DNA of 64,000 nucleotides from Cystobasidiopsis lactophilus (taxonomy: Eukaryota; Basidiomycota; Agaricostilbomycetes; Agaricostilbales; Chionosphaeraceae): contig BCIO01000002.1 in assembly GCA_001599975.1 (NCBI GenBank), positions 4,060,448 through 4,124,447 of the forward strand, written 5' to 3'. Each line of letters begins with the position of its first letter. The first letter of the stretch is position 1. A program made the position numbers and the translations under genes. Below, in pieces: positions 8,803-49,799 of this stretch. The notes under the pieces are model-generated. The model was not told the origin of the DNA. It saw only the letters and a list, made by a program, of their open reading frames with translations, and searched no databases.

Positions 8803-11022
<2,220 letters not shown>

Positions 11023-11207: not shown

Positions 11208-14200
11208 CTAGAGCGGAAGGGCAAAGGGCAAGTCGTCAGGAAAGAAAGTGGCAAGTCGGCTGTCGGTGGCGGAGCGCGAATCAAGCTTGAGCTGTGGCGC
11301 GTCGCTTCCTTGTCTGTAGGGATCAGCAGCGGCAGTATCGAGGAGCGGCTTGTTAAGAATTGGTCTGGGATGACAGAAAGCGGACGCATCTGCGAAGGAG
11401 GTCCAACGCACATCAGGATTCAGAATACCTGATAATGGTAGGAGCGATCCCTTACGTTCGTCAGAAGTATAAGCAACAGCTTTGGCACTGTAAGGTCGGG
11501 CTTCTATATCAGACAATAAGACTGATATGGTGGGCACATCGATACCTTTAGGAGCTGGAGCCTTGGCATCTGCAATGGACTCCTCGACGGTATCAGAAAA
11601 AGAACTGATAGAGCACGGGAGAGCGCATTACCTTTGGAAAAAGTCGTAGCGGGAACTTTGGCATCTGCAACGAAGGCCGACAAATCAGACACCAGGATCT
11701 GATGAAGGAAGGCCGATAGTTACCTTTAGCAGAGGCTTTAGCATCTGTAGGACAACTCCAACTAAAGAATCAGAATGAACTGATAAAGTGGGGTTCGGGG
11801 TCCTACGTTTGGAAATGGCAGCAGCGGGAGTGGGAGCTTTAGCATCTGTGCGACATTCGCCGAAGCAATCAGACGATGAAACTCGACTGATGAAGTAGTG
11901 CGTTCTCTCGCACCTTTAGCAGAAGTCGAAGGCTCGGCATCTGTAGCCCGAAAACAACGAAATCAGACTGAACTGATAGAGTAAAGTCCTCGGACCTACC
12001 TTAGTCTCGCCAGCAGCAGGCGCCGGGTTGACTTCTGTACGAGCTCCTACACTACGTATCCATAATTGGATGCGGTAGAAAGAGTCAACGCACCTTCCTC
12101 CTCTGACTCGGCGTCCCAATCGTCTTTGACATCCTCCTTCTCGCTCTCCGCGTCCCACTCGTCCTTCGGTTCCCCTTCCACTTTCACCTCTTCCTTTGAC
12201 CTCCACCTTTGGCTCTTCCTTCACTTCCTCGACAGGCAGCGGCGGAGGTGGTTCGACCGATTTCTTAGATGGTGGCTTCGTCTTAGCTTCATGGCTGACG
12301 TTTCCGGGCGCCGATCCAGGGTCGGGCGAGCCACCAGCGTTGATACCCGCCGATTTGACTCCAGACGCGAGCAAGGCAAGTCGGGCTTGTTAGGCCCTCG
12401 CTTCTTCTCTTTCCTGAGCGGGGGATTTCCACCGGCCTTCTGCTTTGGCCGCTGCTTCTCTTTCCTGTTTCACATCGAAGACCGACATATCAACACGGGG
12501 GTTTTGGGTTGATAAAAGAGGGCAAGAGGAAACCTTTTGCTTTTGCTTCTTGGCCAATAGGGCAGCTTCGGCTTTCTCTTGTTCTTCCGCCTCGGGAGCT
12601 TCTTCCTCTGCGATTCGTGTGTTCGCGAGTCACCGAACCCATCTAGATGAGTGGGGAGGCATCTTAGACAAGGATGGATCACGGACTTTCGTTCGGCCTC
12701 TTCTGCAAGACGAGCGGCTTCTTCCGCTGCTCGTTTCGCAGCTAGAGCTTCCTGTGCGTTTCGGCCTCAGTGAGCTGAGCAACCACAAGAGAGCTTCTCA
12801 AAGTGTAGAGGCACAAGCGCACTCGCATAGCTAAGACCTGCTTGGACACTTTGCCTTCCTTCACCGGGACTGGAGCAGCTGGAGCTGGAGTGGCTTTTTT
12901 TCCTGTTTCGTCATTGACCCATTAAGATGAGCTCAAGGTGGGAGGGTGCTAAAAGGAAGGGAGGAACGACGAACTTCTTCTTCTTGTTCTTGGACGCAGC
13001 GGCTCCAGTGGCAGGTTCATTGCCGTCGTCCGCTTCTTCGTCAGTTTGAGGTTGAGCTTCTTCTGTCGGTGTTGCATCGACCACTGGGGCTGGGACAAGG
13101 CGGCAGGGGCGGCGGGGACAGAAGGCTGGGAAGAAGCGGCTTTGGCCTTTTCCTTTTCCTGTGCAATTTCCGGCATCAAACTCTGGATAAGACAGAGTAG
13201 AGGGGAGCGGAGACGGGCACCTTCTGGCGTTGCTTCTTGAGCTCCTCCTTCGCCGTCTTGCTCATGGCTTGTCCCCGGCCCCTTCTTCCTCGGCCTCTGC
13301 ATCCTCCTCGGGCACAGCCTGGACTTGGTTCTTCTTGTTTTTCTCCACTGGCACCTCCCACTCGTCCTCGGAAGAATCGTCTTCTTGGTCGGACGATGTA
13401 ACCACTTTGCTGTTGGCCTTCGCGTCTGTAGATCAGAAACACAAAGGCATCAGAATGAACTGATAGAGATGGTCAGAGCTCCCCTACCTTGGGGCAGCAG
13501 CAGCAGCGGGAGGCTTGACATCTGTGGTCACGGCTTGTTAGATCAGACGGAATTGACAACGTTAAGAGCCGATCGCCTACCTTCGCCAGAAGTAGAAGCG
13601 GCAGCCTTGACATCTGTAATCACAAAGGCTACAACGATCAGACCAAAACTGATAAAGTCGGCCACGCCATTACCTTTCGGAGCTGGAGGCAGGGCATCTG
13701 CAGGGCACACTACCGCGGAATCAGCAAACGAACTAAGTAAGGTCCGGGAGAAGGCATCACCTGCGGAAGAGGTAGCAGCGGTGGCTTTAGGATCTGAGTC
13801 CGACTGGCACTAGGAATCAGAACGCAGATGGACTGATAAAGTGGGACCAGTCGCTACTTTAAGCTGAGGCTTTGGCAACCCTAGAGTATCACAAACGGCA
13901 ATGGAATCAGAACGAGCTGATGACAAGAGCTTCGAGAATCCCACCTTAGGAAGCGGGAGCGGGAGCGTTGGCATCTGCGCAAAAGGAGCTACAAAATCAG
14001 ACGCTGAACTTGACTGATGAAGTGGAAGTTCCTCGCACCTTTGGCAGGACTTGAAGCCTTTGCAGCTGTACGAAGAGAGAACCGATCCATCAGAATGGAC
14101 TGGTGAAGTACAATCCTCATCCCTACCTTTAGTCTCGGTAGTGGTGATCGCCAGCTTAGCTTCTGCGAGTGCTAAGCAAAATTACCAAATCCAAATTGGA

Positions 14201-14344
14201 TAGAGTAGGACGCAAGCAACCCACCTTCCTGCTCGGACTCTGTGTGTCCCAAACGTCTTCCACGCCCGCCTTCTCGCCAAATGCGTCTTCGATCGAAGTT
14301 GACATCCGCTGGCCCTTGTCCAACGATGGCGCTGAGACTTCCAT
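11208..14344 (-). CDS. Lys/Glu/Ala-rich protein resembling the eIF5B N-terminus, built from tiny repeated exons
   Basis: Low-complexity charged protein or relic. From MEVSAPSLDKGQ at 14344 comes an acidic stretch (VEDVWDTQSPS), then a run of mini-exons each encoding about ten residues of the form D-A-K-A-P-x-x-x-K. Next are EDEWEVPVEKNKKNQ, MSKTAKEELKKQRQK, QEKEKAKAASSQPSVP and EEAARLAEEAERK-like coiled-coil segments, VKDDWDAESEEEG, a second run of mini-exons, and a C-terminus ending at the stop 11208-11210. K/E-rich helices with x-x-W-D-A-E-S-E motifs are typical of the unstructured N-terminal half of translation GTPase eIF5B, but no GTPase domain (G1 GHVDxGKT) follows. At least two frame slips (near 13270 and 13090) and an in-frame stop in one mini-exon (about 13960) mean it is either disrupted or contains sequence errors. 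Exon structure is described under the array feature. Confidence 0.4.
11405..14170 (-). repeat. Tandem array of duplicated mini-exon plus intron units (two blocks)
   Basis: Two blocks (about 11405-12190 and 13430-14340) each contain a chain of units made of a 24-36-nt exon followed by an intron of about 58-68 nt. Most exons begin in phase 1 with the remainder of an Asp or Glu codon, encode D-A-K-A or a variant, and end AAAG in phase 1, so a unit can be gained or lost without changing frame. Both blocks start with an acidic W-D exon followed by an E-x-x-x-A...E-T-K exon, so the whole block was also duplicated. Fifteen introns inspected share a short element: upstream ATCAG, 6-14 bases, then CTGAT at the branch position. 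Twelve have both halves exact. Units near 13870 and 13960 look decayed (altered donor, in-frame stop), and the one near 13490 is 34 nt, not a multiple of three. Confidence 0.75.
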
Positions 14345-14689
14345 CTTGGACTACTCTTCGACGTCGTGAGCTTCTTCGTGCGCTGGAGCCTTCTTAATAG
14401 CCGCAGGTGGACCTTTGTTGCCAAGTGGTAGGCACGTTGCCAGACCGATGAGACCGGCGCCCAGTTCATCCATATAGCTACTCTGAGTGTGTTGAGCTGT
14501 CCATCGTGCATAGCGCATGAGCTCCCACTGAACACAGAGCTATGGGGCGAGGCAACGACGGACCTGTTGTTGTTTACGTCTGCTCGCTCAAATCAAAGCG
14601 AATGCTCTTCCTGCGCCGGGCCTCGTCGCAGCATATAGCAAATCAGCAATAGCATGCCTGTGATACGGCCCACTTCCCTAGTCAATCGC

Positions 14690-15010
14690 TGCGCTTGACT
14701 GAGTGTGAAAGGTCGAACGCACCTTTGGCAACCTGTAACACTCGCGCAGCTAAGAATGCTGTCCTGGGGCCTTCTGAGGGGAGCGAGGAGCATTACCAAG
14801 CGGCCTGTGCATCTTACACACCCCAAGTGAGCCCAGTCCATGGCTTGAGTTGGGACCGAGACGCACAGCACCTTCCAAAGTGGAGCGCGCATCTGTGAGC
14901 AGGACTGGCAACCTCAGCGGCCTATTCGCTGCTTGTAACGGTCCCTGAGCTCACTCTGCAAGGCAACATCACGCAAACAGCAGTCGGACGAGCGTTGGTC
15001 TGCGAGCAAG
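14690..15010 (-). pseudogene. Decayed duplicate of the dehydrogenase 5' exons
   Basis: Aligned by eye to the 5' part of the class III dehydrogenase (10770-10960), this stretch keeps the order of the exon 2 upstream region (GTCTGCGAGCAAGGACATTG versus GTCTGCGAGCGAAGGACAAT), the exon 2 donor context (TGCTGTGCGTCTCGG versus TGCTGTACGTCTTGA), the 9-nt microexon (GCCGCTTGG versus GTCGCTTGG) and the next acceptor/donor pair (TTACAG ... GTGCG). The reading frame is not maintained and no downstream dehydrogenase exons follow. It is therefore a relic of a partial duplication, on the far side of the exon array from the intact gene. Confidence 0.5.
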
Positions 15011-29513: not shown

Positions 29514-30945
29514 CTATCTGCTGTTGATGGGAGGCAAAGACGTGAAGTCAGGGGCCGAGCCCATCGCCCGTTGCGACAAGGGCCGGGGGTAGCTGAACAA
29601 TTGGGCAGCCGGCGTTGGCCCTTGTAGCACTTGTTGGGACGTCCAAGCTGTGAAATGGGCACCAGAGGCAGTCGCAGTCATTGTTCTCAACCGCGATTCC
29701 AAATGGCGCTTTCTGGTATAGGCGACTGGGCCAGGGCTTCCCTCGGCTGGAAGATGAGGGAGGCCAGCAGCTGGGTGCATAATGATGATGCCATCCGTGC
29801 TGAGACGAGGAGAAGACGCTGGAGCCAGCGTGGACAGAGAGTCCGAGGCCTTTGCGTCTTCAGCGGCGACCGGGCTGCGAGATGGTCCAGCCGGTTGAGT
29901 GCGAAGCCCAGCATATGGGTGCACAATGACGATGCCCTCCGTGCTGGAGCGAGGAGAAGACGTAAGAGCCGGCGTGGACACAGTGTCCGAAGCGCGGGCG
30001 TCTTCAGTAGCGGCTGGGATGACGAGTCGATCGGCCGGACGAGTGGAAGGTCCCGCAATGGGGTTGGCAGCGGCGGCACTTGTTGAAGCGGAAGTAGTGC
30101 TCGAACTTTCGAATGGTTGTCCAGGCTGGCGAGATCCGGTCACGTAGAGTTGACCGGCCGGCTCGGAGGGGAGAACGAGCTTAATGAAGGAAGCGTCGAG
30201 CTCCGCCTTGGTATGCGTCGGGAATTTGAGGTCGAACTCGCGCAAGGTGACGCAGCGGATGTTGTGGGCAGCAAGCAGTTGTTCGGCGAACAGACGCTCG
30301 CTTCCCTCCTCCAAGGTAATGACTCTTGCGTTGGCTGCGCAGCAAAGCAGATGCTCAGTGCAGTCCTGCAACGAAAAGGTCGAGAGAGCCTACCATCCGC
30401 GACAAGCTTCACATACTGGCTTCTGCAAACGGCCGCGTTTCGGCCTTCAACGCCCCTGGCCACCTTCTCCCAGTGCTTGAGGTTGATCAAATACGAGTTG
30501 ACCAATTTGAGCGAGTCTTCAGGTGTCCATGCCGGAGCGCGGCCGGTGGATGATTTGTGAATCGAGTAGGGCGTGACTTGCTGCACAGCCGTTAGCCAGA
30601 GGCAAGCAGTCCTGCGAAACGAGCTACGCACAGACATAGCCCAAAGCTCATCGGCATCTGGAGCGAAAGCATCGACATGTCAGCCAAGGCTTGGGGAGGA
30701 AAGAACCCAAGGAAAGGCGCCGACCGTTGAGATGGCCACGGCTTCCAGACTGCGCTGCGACTCCGTTTAGGGCACCAGATACACCCTGCGATTCGAAATC
30801 AGTCAGAAATCTTGGGTCTTGTGCGAATACACGACGAGAGGGAAAAGATGGGAAAGCAAGTGGCGAGTGGCGTGAAGGAGCGAAGGGGAGGGTGGCAGAG
30901 AAAGGAGAGGCTTACAGCACCCGTTCCGTGCTTCGAGGACGACAT
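29514..30945 (-). CDS. SANT/Myb-like family protein, copy 1
   Basis: Member of a local gene family with two Myb-like repeats. It starts MSSSKHGTGA (exon 1, 30 nt; GTAAGC donor); small exons follow (GVSGALNGVAAQSGSRGHLN). The first repeat is APAWTPEDSLKLVNSYL ... CRSQYVKLVADG, and the second ERLFAEQLLAAHNIRCVTLREF ... AELDASFIKLVLP. The tail contains two imperfect repeats of about 39 residues (ATEDARASDTVST ... IVIVHPYAG and AAEDAKASDSLST ... IIIMHPAAG) and the family C-terminus AQLFSYPRPLSQRAMGSAP, DFTSLPPINSR. It is closest to the copy at 47738-49173. It sits between the two transporter paralogs, on the same strand as both. Likely nuclear; function unknown. Confidence 0.8.
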
Positions 30946-38590: not shown

Positions 38591-39816
38591 ATGCGCGTGA
38601 ATCCAGCTGCTTGTGGCCGCTGCTTGCGATTGGCTTCGAAACGGCCTGCTTTGAGTAGTACTAGGGGCTTCAAGGCGGCAGCGCTGGCCAGAGCCAAGGC
38701 GGAGGAGCCCGGCCCATCGAGCGCTCACACTCACCGAGCTGCCACCGGCGCACGTCTTTCTCCCCATTGGTGGCCATTCTGTCTTTAGGCTTACTCTGAT
38801 GAGTCGTACAGCCCTTCTCATGGCCGGCTTTCGCGCTCTTCGGACTCACAGGCGGCGCCTTGGTGCTCTACTTCAAGTCGGAGAAGCAAAAGGTGCAAGC
38901 TAAGAAGCGTTCGTTGCCTCTTTCGTCCTCTATCTCTCTTGGGATAGCTCCGATGAGGCCGATGAACAGAATCCGAATTGGCGGACCAAAAAGTCGGCAA
39001 GCCCAAAGTGGGCGGCCCATTCCAGCTCATCGACCAGCGCGGCCAGCCCTTCTCCGACGCCGACCTGCTCGGCAAGTTCTCGTTGGTCTACGTGCGTTGT
39101 TTCTTCCATTAGCCCTTGACTGGGCTTTACCCAGTCAACCATGCACAGTTTGGGTTTACGAACTGCCCCGACATTTGCCCCGAGGAGCTCGACAAGATGG
39201 GCTGGGTCGTCGACTCGATAGGTTTGTCCAGGTCCTTACCTCATCCGTCTTTTGGATGGATTTGACATTGGGACGAACAGGCTCGGAATTGGGTAAAGAC
39301 ACCATCAAGCCCGTGTTCATCACCTGCGACCCGGCTCGGGATTCCGTCAAGGCCATCAACACCTACTTGAAAGGTTCGCTCGCCTCCCCCTTATATCACT
39401 CGATATAATGTCTGTTGATGGTCTCGAACAGACTTCCACCCGAGCATGGTCGGCTTGACAGGCTCGTACGAAGCAGTCAAGGCCGCGTGCAAGTCTTACC
39501 GCGTCTACTTCTCCACGCCGCCTAACGCCAAGCCGACGGACGACTACCTGGTGGACCACTCTATCTTGTCCGTTGCCTCTTTCCCTTTAGACATCAATCC
39601 TTCGGGGTCTAATGGCACTTGTGGCATGGGCAGCTTCTACTTGATGGATCCGCAAGGAAGGTTCATGGATGCCTTTGGGCGGTCAGCTCCGAGGGTGCGT
39701 GCCTGATCCTCTTTCAGTACTGCGTGTACTGATCTCGGAATGGCAATGTACAGGATGAGGTCAAGGACAAGATCAAGCGGTACATCTCCGAGTACAAGGC
39801 GGCGAACCCACAATGA
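38591..39816 (+). CDS. SCO1: SCO1/SCO2-type copper chaperone for cytochrome c oxidase
   Basis: Mitochondrial inner-membrane thioredoxin-fold protein that delivers copper to the CuA site of Cox2. Exon 1 from [20 protein letters not shown] is a basic presequence. A GC-AG intron at 38750-38811 (donor GCACGT, 62 nt) joins A-T-G to [21 protein letters not shown], the membrane anchor. The copper domain follows: [38 protein letters not shown] with the C-x-x-x-C copper ligands, [40 protein letters not shown] and DDYLVDHSI (copper His), [16 protein letters not shown], ending YKAANPQ. All remaining introns are GT-AG. With the GC donor ignored the anchor cannot be joined in frame. Confidence 0.9.
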
Positions 39817-46395: not shown

Positions 46396-46952
46396 TGACA
46401 GCGGCCGACCACCGCCAACTATCGCTCCTCAGCTACCTCCACTTTTCGATGCCAACGCGCACCTGGGACTTCACTACTCCGCTCTCGGCCCAGGCCCCTG
46501 TTGTTGCCGACTGGACCAGGGACGTGTCACAAGTCTACCTGCTTCAAGGGGCGGTCGAACCCCAGCACGTCCTCTACACCCTGAACGGCAGCGTGGTGGC
46601 CCTCCTCGAGCAAATCAAGCCCGAACAGCGACGGGCTGGAGACCAGATTTTTCCCTACACTCCCAATGCGCCACTCCCATCTCCGGAAAACAGCAATTGC
46701 CTAGGGCTGGCCGTCATCCGGTCCATCTTGCCACAAAGCCACCAGCTTCGCCTCCTTACACCCGTCTCAACGGACGATTTNCCTCGCGTTTCGGCCCTCG
46801 CTATGGGGCAAGTGGAGCTCCCTATCATCGCAATGTACGAGGACGACTTGGACCTCGAGCGCTCCAANCTGCCATACCTCAAGCTCGACCCTTATGCCGG
46901 TGCCAAGCGCAGAATCAGGCGGAACGTTCAGCGGAGAGACCAGCAAGTGTAG
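46396..46952 (+). pseudogene. Duplicated 3' fragment of GRC3
   Basis: From TGACAGCGGCCGACCACC at 46396 the sequence matches the GRC3 gene from 63653 to the window edge at about 94% identity by eye over 348 bases. It then continues through what should be the GRC3 C-terminus (MGQVELPIIAMYEDDLDLE ... KRRIRRNVQRRDQQV) to a TAG. The kinase P-loop and all upstream exons are missing and there is no start context, so it is a truncated copy inserted between two SANT genes. Single Ns occur at 46782 and 46868. It may still be transcribed as a read-through 3' region of SANT copy 2. Confidence 0.8.
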
Positions 46953-47737
46953 CTGGGAATTAGGTTGCGCTCATTTGCGCTACGTCTTCCTGCTTTCCTT
47001 TTCGCCACCACGCGTACCTGCTCCTTAAGCACGCCTTGGGATGTTTCAAGCAAGCTGATATCTTGTAAAGCCTTGCAAGAAGCCTCGACTTGAGTAACGA
47101 GAGACATTGTCGAGCGGGGAGACGCGGGATATGTGAGGAGAGCCGCGGCATAAAAATCGTCGGCTCGTTTCCGAAATCGCTCAATCGCTCCCCAAGTTGC
47201 TCTAGCCCAGCCATGTTGCCTCGCTTCTGCAGCTTCTTTTTGCCTGGAAATGCCTTGAAAAACGCATCAAGCTAATGCTGGTTTCGATTGTGTTTTGAGT
47301 GTGCTGGGGGCAAAAAAAAAAGGGAGTCGTCGATGTCAAGTCCAGCGAGAAGAAGGGGCACTTCGAGACAAGTCGCAAGCGCTTTCATAACTCTGCCGCT
47401 TTAAGAGCTAGTTCAAGCCGCTTGGTCCTTTTCGTCCGCAAAGTTCGGTGCTACAGCTACATCTTATGTGGGTTTGCCAGCGAAACGCCACGAGACTGCT
47501 GGTCCGTACCCGTCCTTTGCGGGTGCATTCTCTTGCCTTGGCTACAATTCTTGATCAATTCACATCCCAGCAACTTTTGATGCTTCTCATAAGTGGTGGT
47601 TTGGTTGCGTCAGCAGCCGTTATCAGCGACCGTTCCAGGGAACTTTGTAACGGTTTCGCAGAGGGCGGCCCACTGCTTCGTCTCTTTCTCTGCTACCACC
47701 GTCTGAGTTCTACCTCATACTTCAATATCGCTTCATT

Positions 47738-49173
47738 ATGTCGTCCTCGAAGCACGGAACGGGTGCTGCAAGCCTCTCCTTTCTCTGCCACCCTCCCCTT
47801 CGCTCCTTCACGCCAGTCGCCACTTGCTTTCCCATCTTTTGCCTCTCGTCATGTATTCAAACAGAACCCAAGATTTCTGACTGATTTGCAATCGCAGGGT
47901 GTATCTGATGCACTGAACGAAGTCCCAATGCAGTCCGGAAGCCGTGGCCATTTTAACGGTCGGCGCCTTCCAAGTTGACTCCCGTTTTAGCACCTTTACT
48001 GATATGTGGATACTATGGTTTAGATGCTGGCGAGCTCGAGGCTACATCTGTGAGTGAATCATTTGGGTGGAAGTTTGCCACTGGCTAACGTGCCGAGCCT
48101 CTTAGCAAGCACGGCCTCGTTCGTTGCGGAAGTCGAAGGAAACCAGTAGCCCCTGGACACCTCAAGAGACGCGGATCATGATCTGCGCTTATTTGGACAA
48201 GCCCAAACAGTGGAACGAGGTCGCCAAAGGGGTTGACGGCCGGGCTGGGCCAGCTTGCAGAATCCAGTATGTGAACATGTTCAGCAAGGGTAGGTTTCCT
48301 TGGAGTTTTCGCTACGAGGTTAATCTCACTGACGATCTCCATTGCCTTGCAGCTCAAACGAGAGTCAACTCCATGGCGAACGAGGGCGAGCGTTTGTTCG
48401 CTCAGCGCCTCCGTGACGTCCACGCCACTGCCTACCTTACTTTGCGCGAGTTCGACCTCCAGTTTCCGACGCACACCAAGGCCGAGCTCGACGCTTCCTT
48501 CATCAAGCTCGCTCTCCCTGACGACCCTGCCGGTCAACTGTACGTGACCGGATCTCGCCAGCCTGGTCAACCATTCGACAGTTCGAGCACTGCTTCCACT
48601 TCAACAAGTGCCGCTGCTGCCAACTCCATTGCGGGACCTTCCGCTCGTCTGGCTGATCAACTCGTCATCCCAGCCGTTACTGAAGACGCCCGCGGCTCGG
48701 ACACTGTGTCCACGCCGGCTCCTACGTCTTCTCCTCGCCCCAGCACGGAGGGTATCGTCATTGTGCACCCATATGCTGGGCATCGCACTCGTCCGGTTGA
48801 ACCATCTCGCAGCCCGATCGCCGCTGAAGACGCACACGGCTCGGACTCTGTGTCCACGCTGGCTCCAGCGTCTTCCCCTCGTCTCAGCACGCATGGCATC
48901 ATCATTGTTCACCCAGCTGCTGGCCTTCCTCATCGTCCAGTCGAGCGAACCCCTGGCCCAGTCGCCTATACCAGAAAGCGCCATTTGGAATCGCGGTTGA
49001 GAACAATGACTGCGACTTCCTCTGGTGCCCATTTCACAGCTTGGCCGTCCCAACANNNGCTACAAGGGCCAACTCCGGCCGCCCAGCTGTTCAGCTACCC
49101 CCGGCCCCTGTCGCAACGGGCTCTGGGTTCAGCTCCCGACTTTACCTCTTTGCCTCCCATCAACAGCAGATAG
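47738..49173 (+). CDS. SANT/Myb-like family protein, copy 3
   Basis: Start MSSSKHGTGA at 47738-47767, then a GC donor (GCAAGC) where copies 1 and 2 have GTAAGC. The next exons are GVSDALNEVPMQSGSRGHFN, DAGELEATS, then SPWTPQETRIMICAYLDKP ... CRIQYVNMFSK (repeat 1), and after an intron AQTRVNSMANEGERLFAQR, LTLREFDLQFPTHTKAELD (repeat 2). The tail has the two 39-residue repeats seen in copy 1 (AVTEDARGSDTVST ... IVIVHPYAG; AAEDAHGSDSVST ... IIIVHPAAG) and ends DFTSLPPINSR at 49173, just before the N gap. Three Ns occur at 49056-49058. Confidence 0.8.
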
Positions 49174-49175
49174 TG

Positions 49176-49425
49176 NNNNNNNNNNNNNNNNNNNNNNNNN
49201 NNNNNNNNNNNNNNNNNNNNNNNNNNNNNNNNNNNNNNNNNNNNNNNNNNNNNNNNNNNNNNNNNNNNNNNNNNNNNNNNNNNNNNNNNNNNNNNNNNNN
49301 NNNNNNNNNNNNNNNNNNNNNNNNNNNNNNNNNNNNNNNNNNNNNNNNNNNNNNNNNNNNNNNNNNNNNNNNNNNNNNNNNNNNNNNNNNNNNNNNNNNN
49401 NNNNNNNNNNNNNNNNNNNNNNNNN
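49176..49425. other. Assembly gap (run of N)
   Basis: A run of about 250 N immediately after SANT copy 3. It coincides with the end of the duplicated segment, as expected where an assembler could not resolve near-identical copies. The true length may differ. Confidence 0.99.
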
Positions 49426-49799
49426 CCTCGGCTCCTTCAGCTCTGGGTATCATAGGCTTCTGCTTGCACTTTGCGTCTTGAATTAGTCCGAATGAGAGCC
49501 GGTCAAGCCCGCGATTCGCTCGAACGATTCGCGTTGTCGATGCTCCATCGATGGCCGAGGGAAGGGTTTGGAGCAGCGAGCGGGCTGTAACAACATGTCC
49601 TATCCCAACTACTCGTCTTGCTTGCCCTAAAAGACGCGTCGAGGTGTCGCTGACAGCTTCCCANCACTCGCTGGCTGTGCGCACGGCCCGAGAATGTGGC
49701 GCGCGAGGTCATCTCTCTTTCCCAAACCGCGAAACCCAGNCTGCCCTCCCTTTGCTCAAATCACCCCCGAACCACATCACAACAAAACACACACCCACA

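Follow-up and report, generated by a model that had tools for sequence, protein, structure and literature searches.

Covarying Intron Ends in the Genome of Cystobasidiopsis lactophilus and a Probable Decayed eIF5B Copy that Carries Them

Introduction

The window analyzed here is a stretch of 64,000 nucleotides (C2:4060448-4124447) from the 22.1-Mb, 8-contig genome of the basidiomycete fungus Cystobasidiopsis lactophilus. The original prediction, made from its sequence alone, described a tandem array of mini-exons and introns in which the introns carry ATCAG and CTGAT as an inverted repeat at their branch sites. The locus raises the questions of what this array is and whether its introns carry a structure that is kept by selection. 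The joining of donors to acceptors is usually attributed to proteins and snRNAs, with RNA structure acting as a local modifier, and to our knowledge paired splice-site ends are unusual for ordinary introns.

Origin of the Mini-Exon Array

The predicted tandem array is real and lies on the minus strand (Table 1), its 15 mini-exons being 21-39 nt long. Searching the genome for DNA similar to window positions 11300-14450 gave, apart from the query, no more than two matches, which fall in a single gene of C2 (4044736-4046652, 74% identity, and 4046708-4046785). This gene, the intact eIF5B (locus L009), begins at C2:4044344, approximately 22 kb from the window array, and has the opposite orientation. 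Its spliced model, which is built on predicted introns and leaves the last exons unspliced, comprises 1065 residues with zero stops and exceeds the Pfam thresholds of both GTP_EFTU and IF-2. Among the best 120 rows for residues 600-1065, the closest named proteins by identity are those of Microbotryum saponariae (83%) and M. intermedium (82%), followed by a Microbotryomycete (80%) and Sporobolomyces (79%); the top row by score is a Siphonaria protein (69%) with the domain doubled. By this protein, the genome is placed near the Microbotryomycetes. Another IF-2 family match, containing an internal TGA (G000:C5:2824317-2824655), may be the mitochondrial factor, though this is guesswork on our part.

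The intact gene contains the same mini-exon array, with eight units of 18-39 nt encoding the peptides EVKSAPAAAESK, DAKPSTSAK, DAKAPASAAATSK, DAKASAK, DVKAPAATSSK, DAKAPK, DIKAAASTSAK, and DVKAPAAAVVSK. Two Microbotryum eIF5B proteins have an A/K/P-rich stretch at the array position without the repeat, and the mini-exon units therefore look lineage-specific.

In DNA comparisons, the window copy is made up of two segments of the intact gene that overlap and are joined near 13362-13369: window 13362-14277 corresponds to L009:5942-6869 (68.8% identity) and window 11453-13369 to L009:4736-6652 (74.2%). The predicted duplication of units and whole blocks was borne out, positions 11430-12144 and 13554-14277 being 67.6% identical. 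The match to eIF5B stops before the GTPase region, and the window copy shows neither an intact frame nor the GTPase domain. One of the 15 mini-exons (13945-13974, block A) has an in-frame stop, and four break the frame, the lengths of the other 11 being divisible by three (6/8 in block A and 5/7 in block B). Judged from the sequence, we read the window array as a probable decayed, internally duplicated partial duplicate of eIF5B. The proposed protein-length ratchet, under which skipping of any unit keeps the frame, cannot act in the window copy, given the stop and the four frame-breaking units; frame conservation holds for all units of the intact gene (8/8). Strand, decay of the copy, and the intact gene elsewhere had not been part of the original prediction.

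Window 14517-14800 also matches L009:2854-3134 (71.6%), so that the duplication reaches past the eIF5B copy, and about window 14520-14729 resembles L009:1285-1489 (69.4%). Elsewhere in the window, two-copy 144-bp tandem repeats are found at 29764-30049 and 48680-48966, with consensus units that look mutually reverse-complementary, and 257 N letters lie within 46781-49740.

Table 1. Mini-exon array and introns with paired ends in the window (G-U pairs allowed where stated).
Feature	Position	Strand	Description
Whole array	11390..14224	-	Probable decayed partial eIF5B copy; two mini-exon blocks
Block A	13426..14224	-	Nine introns (A0-A8; A4 is one base generous, its donor G being common to the exon end) and eight mini-exons; counterpart L009:5942-6869 of the intact gene
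Stretch separating blocks A and B	12094..13425	-	Charged N-terminal eIF5B exons; frame shifts along the stretch
Block B	11390..12093	-	Eight introns (B0-B7) and seven mini-exons
Intron B3	11745..11806	-	Seven end pairs, GTAGGAC..GTCCTAC-AG; inner ATCAG..CTGAT
Intron B2	11846..11913	-	Six end pairs, GTGCGA..TCGCAC-AG; inner ATCAG..CTGAT
Intron A6	13614..13673	-	Five end pairs, GTAAT..ATTAC-AG
Four predicted non-array introns	38909..39431	+	38909-38969, 39092-39148, 39222-39280, 39374-39431; 5-8 end pairs each (G-U allowed)
Four predicted non-array introns	9434..10019	-	9434-9500, 9544-9610, 9835-9898, 9952-10019; 5-6 end pairs each (G-U allowed)

Covariation of Intron Ends

In many introns genome-wide, the starting bases are complementary to those just before the terminal AG. 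This pairing of intron ends, absent from the original prediction, is a stronger feature than the inverted repeat that it described. Examples from eIF5B include GTTCGTCGAAG..CTTCGACGAAC-AG, with 11 pairs; further complementary ends are GTAGGGAG..CTCCCTAC-AG and GTAACG..CGTTAC-AG. The latter belongs to the intact counterpart of intron A6, from which A6 differs by T:A versus C:G at +5/-7. The ends also match in the single GC-donor array intron of the intact gene (L009:6472-6536, GCAA..TTGC-AG). Ten of the 19 modelled eIF5B introns have a run of at least five pairs (G-U allowed), and nine do not.

Across the array introns, 66 of 104 cells at positions +3 to +6 are Watson-Crick, compared with 38.4 under permutation, and none of 5000 shuffles was as high; a MAFFT alignment of the 26 array introns misplaced the ends and the branch element in several rows and was excluded from the pair counts. 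The mean end-pair run is longest in the intact gene (5.8), followed by block B (4.8) and block A (3.8), the more damaged of the two blocks. This order is consistent with decay once function was lost, the comparison covering 26 related introns only. Preservation of stems between the duplicate copies, which are much decayed, was not seen: 30 changed pairs remain paired, 29 are lost, and 16 are gained. The homologous copies contain 22 double changes, 12 of which end paired, including 6 from Watson-Crick to Watson-Crick (raw counts from decayed copies).

Annotation-free pattern counts covered all 22.1 Mb, with backwards patterns as controls for chance. The matched ends GTTCGT..CGAACAG and GTGCGT..CGCACAG occur at 662 and 794 places, respectively, whereas the two mismatched combinations occur at 52 and 106 (odds ratio about 95). 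Backwards controls for the four patterns gave 62, 15, 39, and 40, which means that chance accounts for part of the mismatched counts. Three cells of a 2x2 table for a second position include GTGAGT..CTCACAG at 296 places versus 115 for GTGCGT..CTCACAG (controls 9 and 13). Some places fit a pattern on both strands, namely C1:418991-419056 (G000; two-base offset) and C1:1090373-1090435 for GTTCGT..CGAACAG, and C1:693654-693720 for GTGCGT..CGCACAG.

The same association was found in introns called by a predictor that uses coding flanks and splice-site profiles. This predictor is blind to pairing and admits only GT or GC donors and AG acceptors; wrongly predicted borders would dilute covariation, not create it. 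The predicted introns have the features of GT-AG spliceosomal introns, that is, a GT or GC donor (96 and 4%, respectively, in the top 200), an AG acceptor, a branch-like sequence (matched in 232/292), and an open frame upon removal. For 170 introns with a score of at least 20 and a length of up to 90 nt, array introns removed, the Watson-Crick fraction is 0.50 at +3/-5 versus 0.36 permuted (z 4.5) and 0.42 at +4/-6 versus 0.27 permuted (z 4.7). Pairing at +6/-8 has a z of 2.7, and that at +5/-7 only 0.9, since +5 is nearly always G. At least five end pairs occur in 39 of these introns against 14.3 expected, and in 48 of a looser set of 258 against 18.7, so that the excess concerns a minority of introns, about 11-15% of the sample. 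None of four alternative registers passed |z| 2.4 (n = 170), and one reached 3.2 in the looser ACAG subset (n = 100). Among earlier, poorer predictors, one gave 3 introns and another 223, of which 92 were used in a first covariation test (z 2.3 and 4.1).

In 314 kb scanned without gene models and with arrays masked, 44 of 137 GTNNGT/CNNACAG pairs match at both variable bases (14.2 expected). The matches include 31 of 64 pairs with a total length of 60-69, compared with 1-3 of 19-24 in the length bins of 80 and above; on reversed sequence, 1 of 30 matched at length 60-69, and the highest bin gave 5 of 26. The two intron ends thus covary genome-wide in a single register. Covariation of paired bases, a mark of selected RNA structure, is observed here among non-homologous introns rather than along a phylogeny.

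The pairing is short. Beyond +6 it did not exceed permutation in 35 listed paired introns, and with the ends held fixed the interiors of these introns fold barely better than shuffled ones (mean z -0.31, standard error 0.18); a long perfect palindrome was therefore rejected. For eight introns picked because their ends pair, folding is better than in shuffled sequences, with z values from -1.5 to -4.7; we take this as an illustration and not as proof.

Inverted Repeat at the Branch Site

A recount of the exact ATCAG..CTGAT repeat gave the predicted numbers: it is present in 12 of 15 unit introns of the window (5/8 for A1-A8 and 7/7 for B1-B7), with loops of 6-14 nt and the CTGAT end 19-25 nt before the intron end. 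The leading introns A0 and B0 have arms of the ATCCA..TGGAT type in its place. Much of the stem inside the array reflects shared descent, because several introns have an identical whole core: ATCAGTTCATTCTGAT is the same to the letter in array introns I3, I8, A8, and B3, and introns I7 and B1 differ by one base. Selection beyond descent, as originally proposed for the stems, is not supported in that form within the array. Genome-wide, the repeat is enriched: ATCAG-N4-16-CTGAT occurs at 749 places versus 252 for the opposite order.

The repeat is not confined to the array, although it is much denser there: exact ATCAG was found upstream of a CTGAT branch sequence in 6 of 34 other introns (3.4% expected). 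Outside arrays, the 314-kb sample contains 6 such places versus 3 in the opposite order; four of the six lie at the branch site of evident introns, as judged by eye, and a fifth (L024) falls within a GTGCGT..CGCACAG paired-end place. The hairpin at the branch site was rejected as a general rule, since GTCAG..CTGAC is near chance genome-wide (283 places; backwards control 336) and an exact complement upstream of a CTGAC branch sequence was found in none of 48 introns.

There is a tendency for the inner hairpin to occur where the ends are paired. A 4-mer complement of the branch lies just upstream of it in 9 of 29 listed paired introns with a callable branch (35 in total; about 7% expected), and among predicted introns in 6/36 paired, 4/53 intermediate, and 7/115 unpaired ones (about 5% expected in each). 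Among the matches listed for C1:1-2.89 Mb, 8 of 72 ATCAG..CTGAT places are inside the two counted end-pair types, which make up 0.34% of the sequence (0.24 places expected), and the control patterns gave 0/28 and 0/24.

Interpretation of the Paired Ends

Our preference, a slight one, is for an RNA hairpin that keeps the donor next to the acceptor, is maintained by selection, and is commoner at donors with a poor fit to U1. Introns of a genome-wide GT-AG class, to which the window array introns would belong, would fold as closed hairpins. In these, the outer stem would join +1 to +6, extending at most to +11, with -3 to -8, extending at most to -13, so that the final AG overhangs; further inside, a second stem would often place the branch sequence opposite its own complement. 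The outer stem could tie each donor to the acceptor of its own intron, either ahead of spliceosome assembly or in the course of it, and might thereby aid poorly fitting donors such as GTGCGT and GTTCGT; selection would retain the complementarity of the ends while their sequences drift. We infer that the end pairing forms in RNA, assists splicing, and compensates for weak donors.

With respect to the donor consensus GTRAGT (PMC1779574), donors without A at +4, which fit it more poorly, show more excess pairing (21.7% versus 7.4% expected) than donors with A at +4 (13% versus 7.4% expected). Matched GTGCGT ends (794) outnumber matched GTGAGT ends (296), although the two donors are equally common in the sample (35/258 and 34/258). 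This bias fits help for weak donors, and GTKCGT-ended ancestors would leave the same bias. Several points speak against the hairpin: a donor held in a duplex would put the stem in competition with U1, structure is reported to be depleted around true splice sites in budding yeast (PMC12350175), five pairs are lacking in 9/19 eIF5B introns, and only a minority of introns is in excess. The lack of stem preservation between the duplicate copies, the weak folding of the interiors, and the absence of excess pairing past +6 in the 35 listed introns count against it as well. The idea that the stem lets the spliceosome skip nearer acceptors was rejected, as the last 12 nt upstream of the acceptor contain YAG less often in paired introns (2/35 listed and 1/47 predicted) than in unpaired ones (26/146).

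The main rival, which we consider unlikely yet serious, is that the introns are relics of symmetrical introner-like introns, their ends and the ATCAG/CTGAT repeat being remnants of a palindrome that served copying, not splicing. Proliferating symmetrical introns are known in fungi (PMC8469720), fast degeneration has been reported for introner-like elements (PMC4457414), and the co-occurrence of ends and inner stem on C1 speaks for such relics. The clustering of paired introns, 38% of 156 among the matches listed having a neighbor within 1 kb versus 10% under a uniform distribution, points the same way, though introns cluster in genes anyway. On the other side, unrelated interiors beside complementary ends are hard to reach by neutral decay, and comparison of about 290 sampled introns revealed no sequence family, only a few weak single hits. 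Target-site duplications of at least 3 bases did not exceed permutation overall in 48 paired introns (3-base repeats 2.1% versus 1.5%); 2-base exon repeats were at 8.3% versus 7.2% permuted, and lengths of 2-5 were otherwise at or below permutation. Hypoxylaceae elements likewise lack such duplications. With neither target-site duplications nor intron families in the sample, recent introner copying is unlikely, and a recent transposon origin was rejected.

It is improbable that donor classes are merely matched to acceptor classes through genome composition or separate splicing factors, with no pairing involved. GTKCGT ends do provide much of the signal, and 7 of the 15 donor types lacked any match in the 314-kb test. 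The association is nevertheless complementary and bound to one register, with G-C and T-A at +3/-5 and A-T, C-G, and G-C at +4/-6 (ACAG subset, n = 78), and other donors also exceed expectation, albeit in small numbers (GTTTGT..CAAACAG, 4 versus 0.7; GTCAGT..CTGACAG, 2 versus 0.1). Shared descent of the array units, with the remainder a coincidence, would account for their common core and is highly improbable as a full account, since the genome-wide counts contradict it and the array-masked 314-kb test is left unexplained.

Comparison with Known Systems

The proposed hairpin resembles the nonconventional introns of euglenids, in which +4, +5, and +6 are reported to pair with -6, -7, and -8, complementarity being kept rather than sequence (PMC4770533). 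The register is the same, +n with -(n+2), with AG left as an overhang, and the corresponding positions here have z values of 4.7, 0.9, and 2.7 (+4/-6, +5/-7, and +6/-8). That source describes the euglenid introns as lacking GT-AG borders and their removal mechanism as not known, whereas the fungal introns are GT-AG (a few GC-AG), have branch-like sequences, and are paired only in part; non-canonical borders were not found among them, the predictor admitting only GT/GC and AG.

Ascomycete symmetrical (stw)introns and introner-like elements are likewise described as GT-AG introns with inverted-repeat ends, capable of forming hairpins and numerous per genome (PMC8469720, PMC4457414). In Hypoxylaceae they are reported to form families whose members resemble one another in sequence and have terminal repeats of 45-55 nt, in contrast to the stems of mostly 5-8 bp, the unrelated sampled introns, and the complementary changes of ends observed here. 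Inverted-repeat ends are also reported for introners with features of DNA transposons (72 of 177 assessable families; PMC9860276), unlike which our introns show neither target-site duplications nor families in the sample; the many near-identical copies typical of introners were not found among the introns sampled (about 290). Zipper stems of Saccharomyces, which similarly shorten the distance between splicing signals, are described as occupying the stretch from donor to branch point, with structure depleted at the canonical splice sites (PMC12350175), whereas here the splice sites themselves are within the stem. Literature searches that covered few subscription journals listed no title or abstract reporting that donor and acceptor ends covary in spliceosomal introns of fungi.

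Implications

We tentatively suggest, as something a little short of an even chance, that donors and acceptors are matched by a pairing code. For many ordinary spliceosomal introns, selected pairing of the donor with the bases before AG would help to choose donor-acceptor partners and relax the need for the U1 consensus. If true, end pairing of the euglenid type would have arisen independently in these GT-AG introns. A genome in which splice sites covary as a duplex would offer well over 1000 natural matched pairs for testing intron definition by folding. It would bear on how the end-paired introns of euglenids are removed and on whether selected structures can be a legacy of symmetrical introner-like introns.
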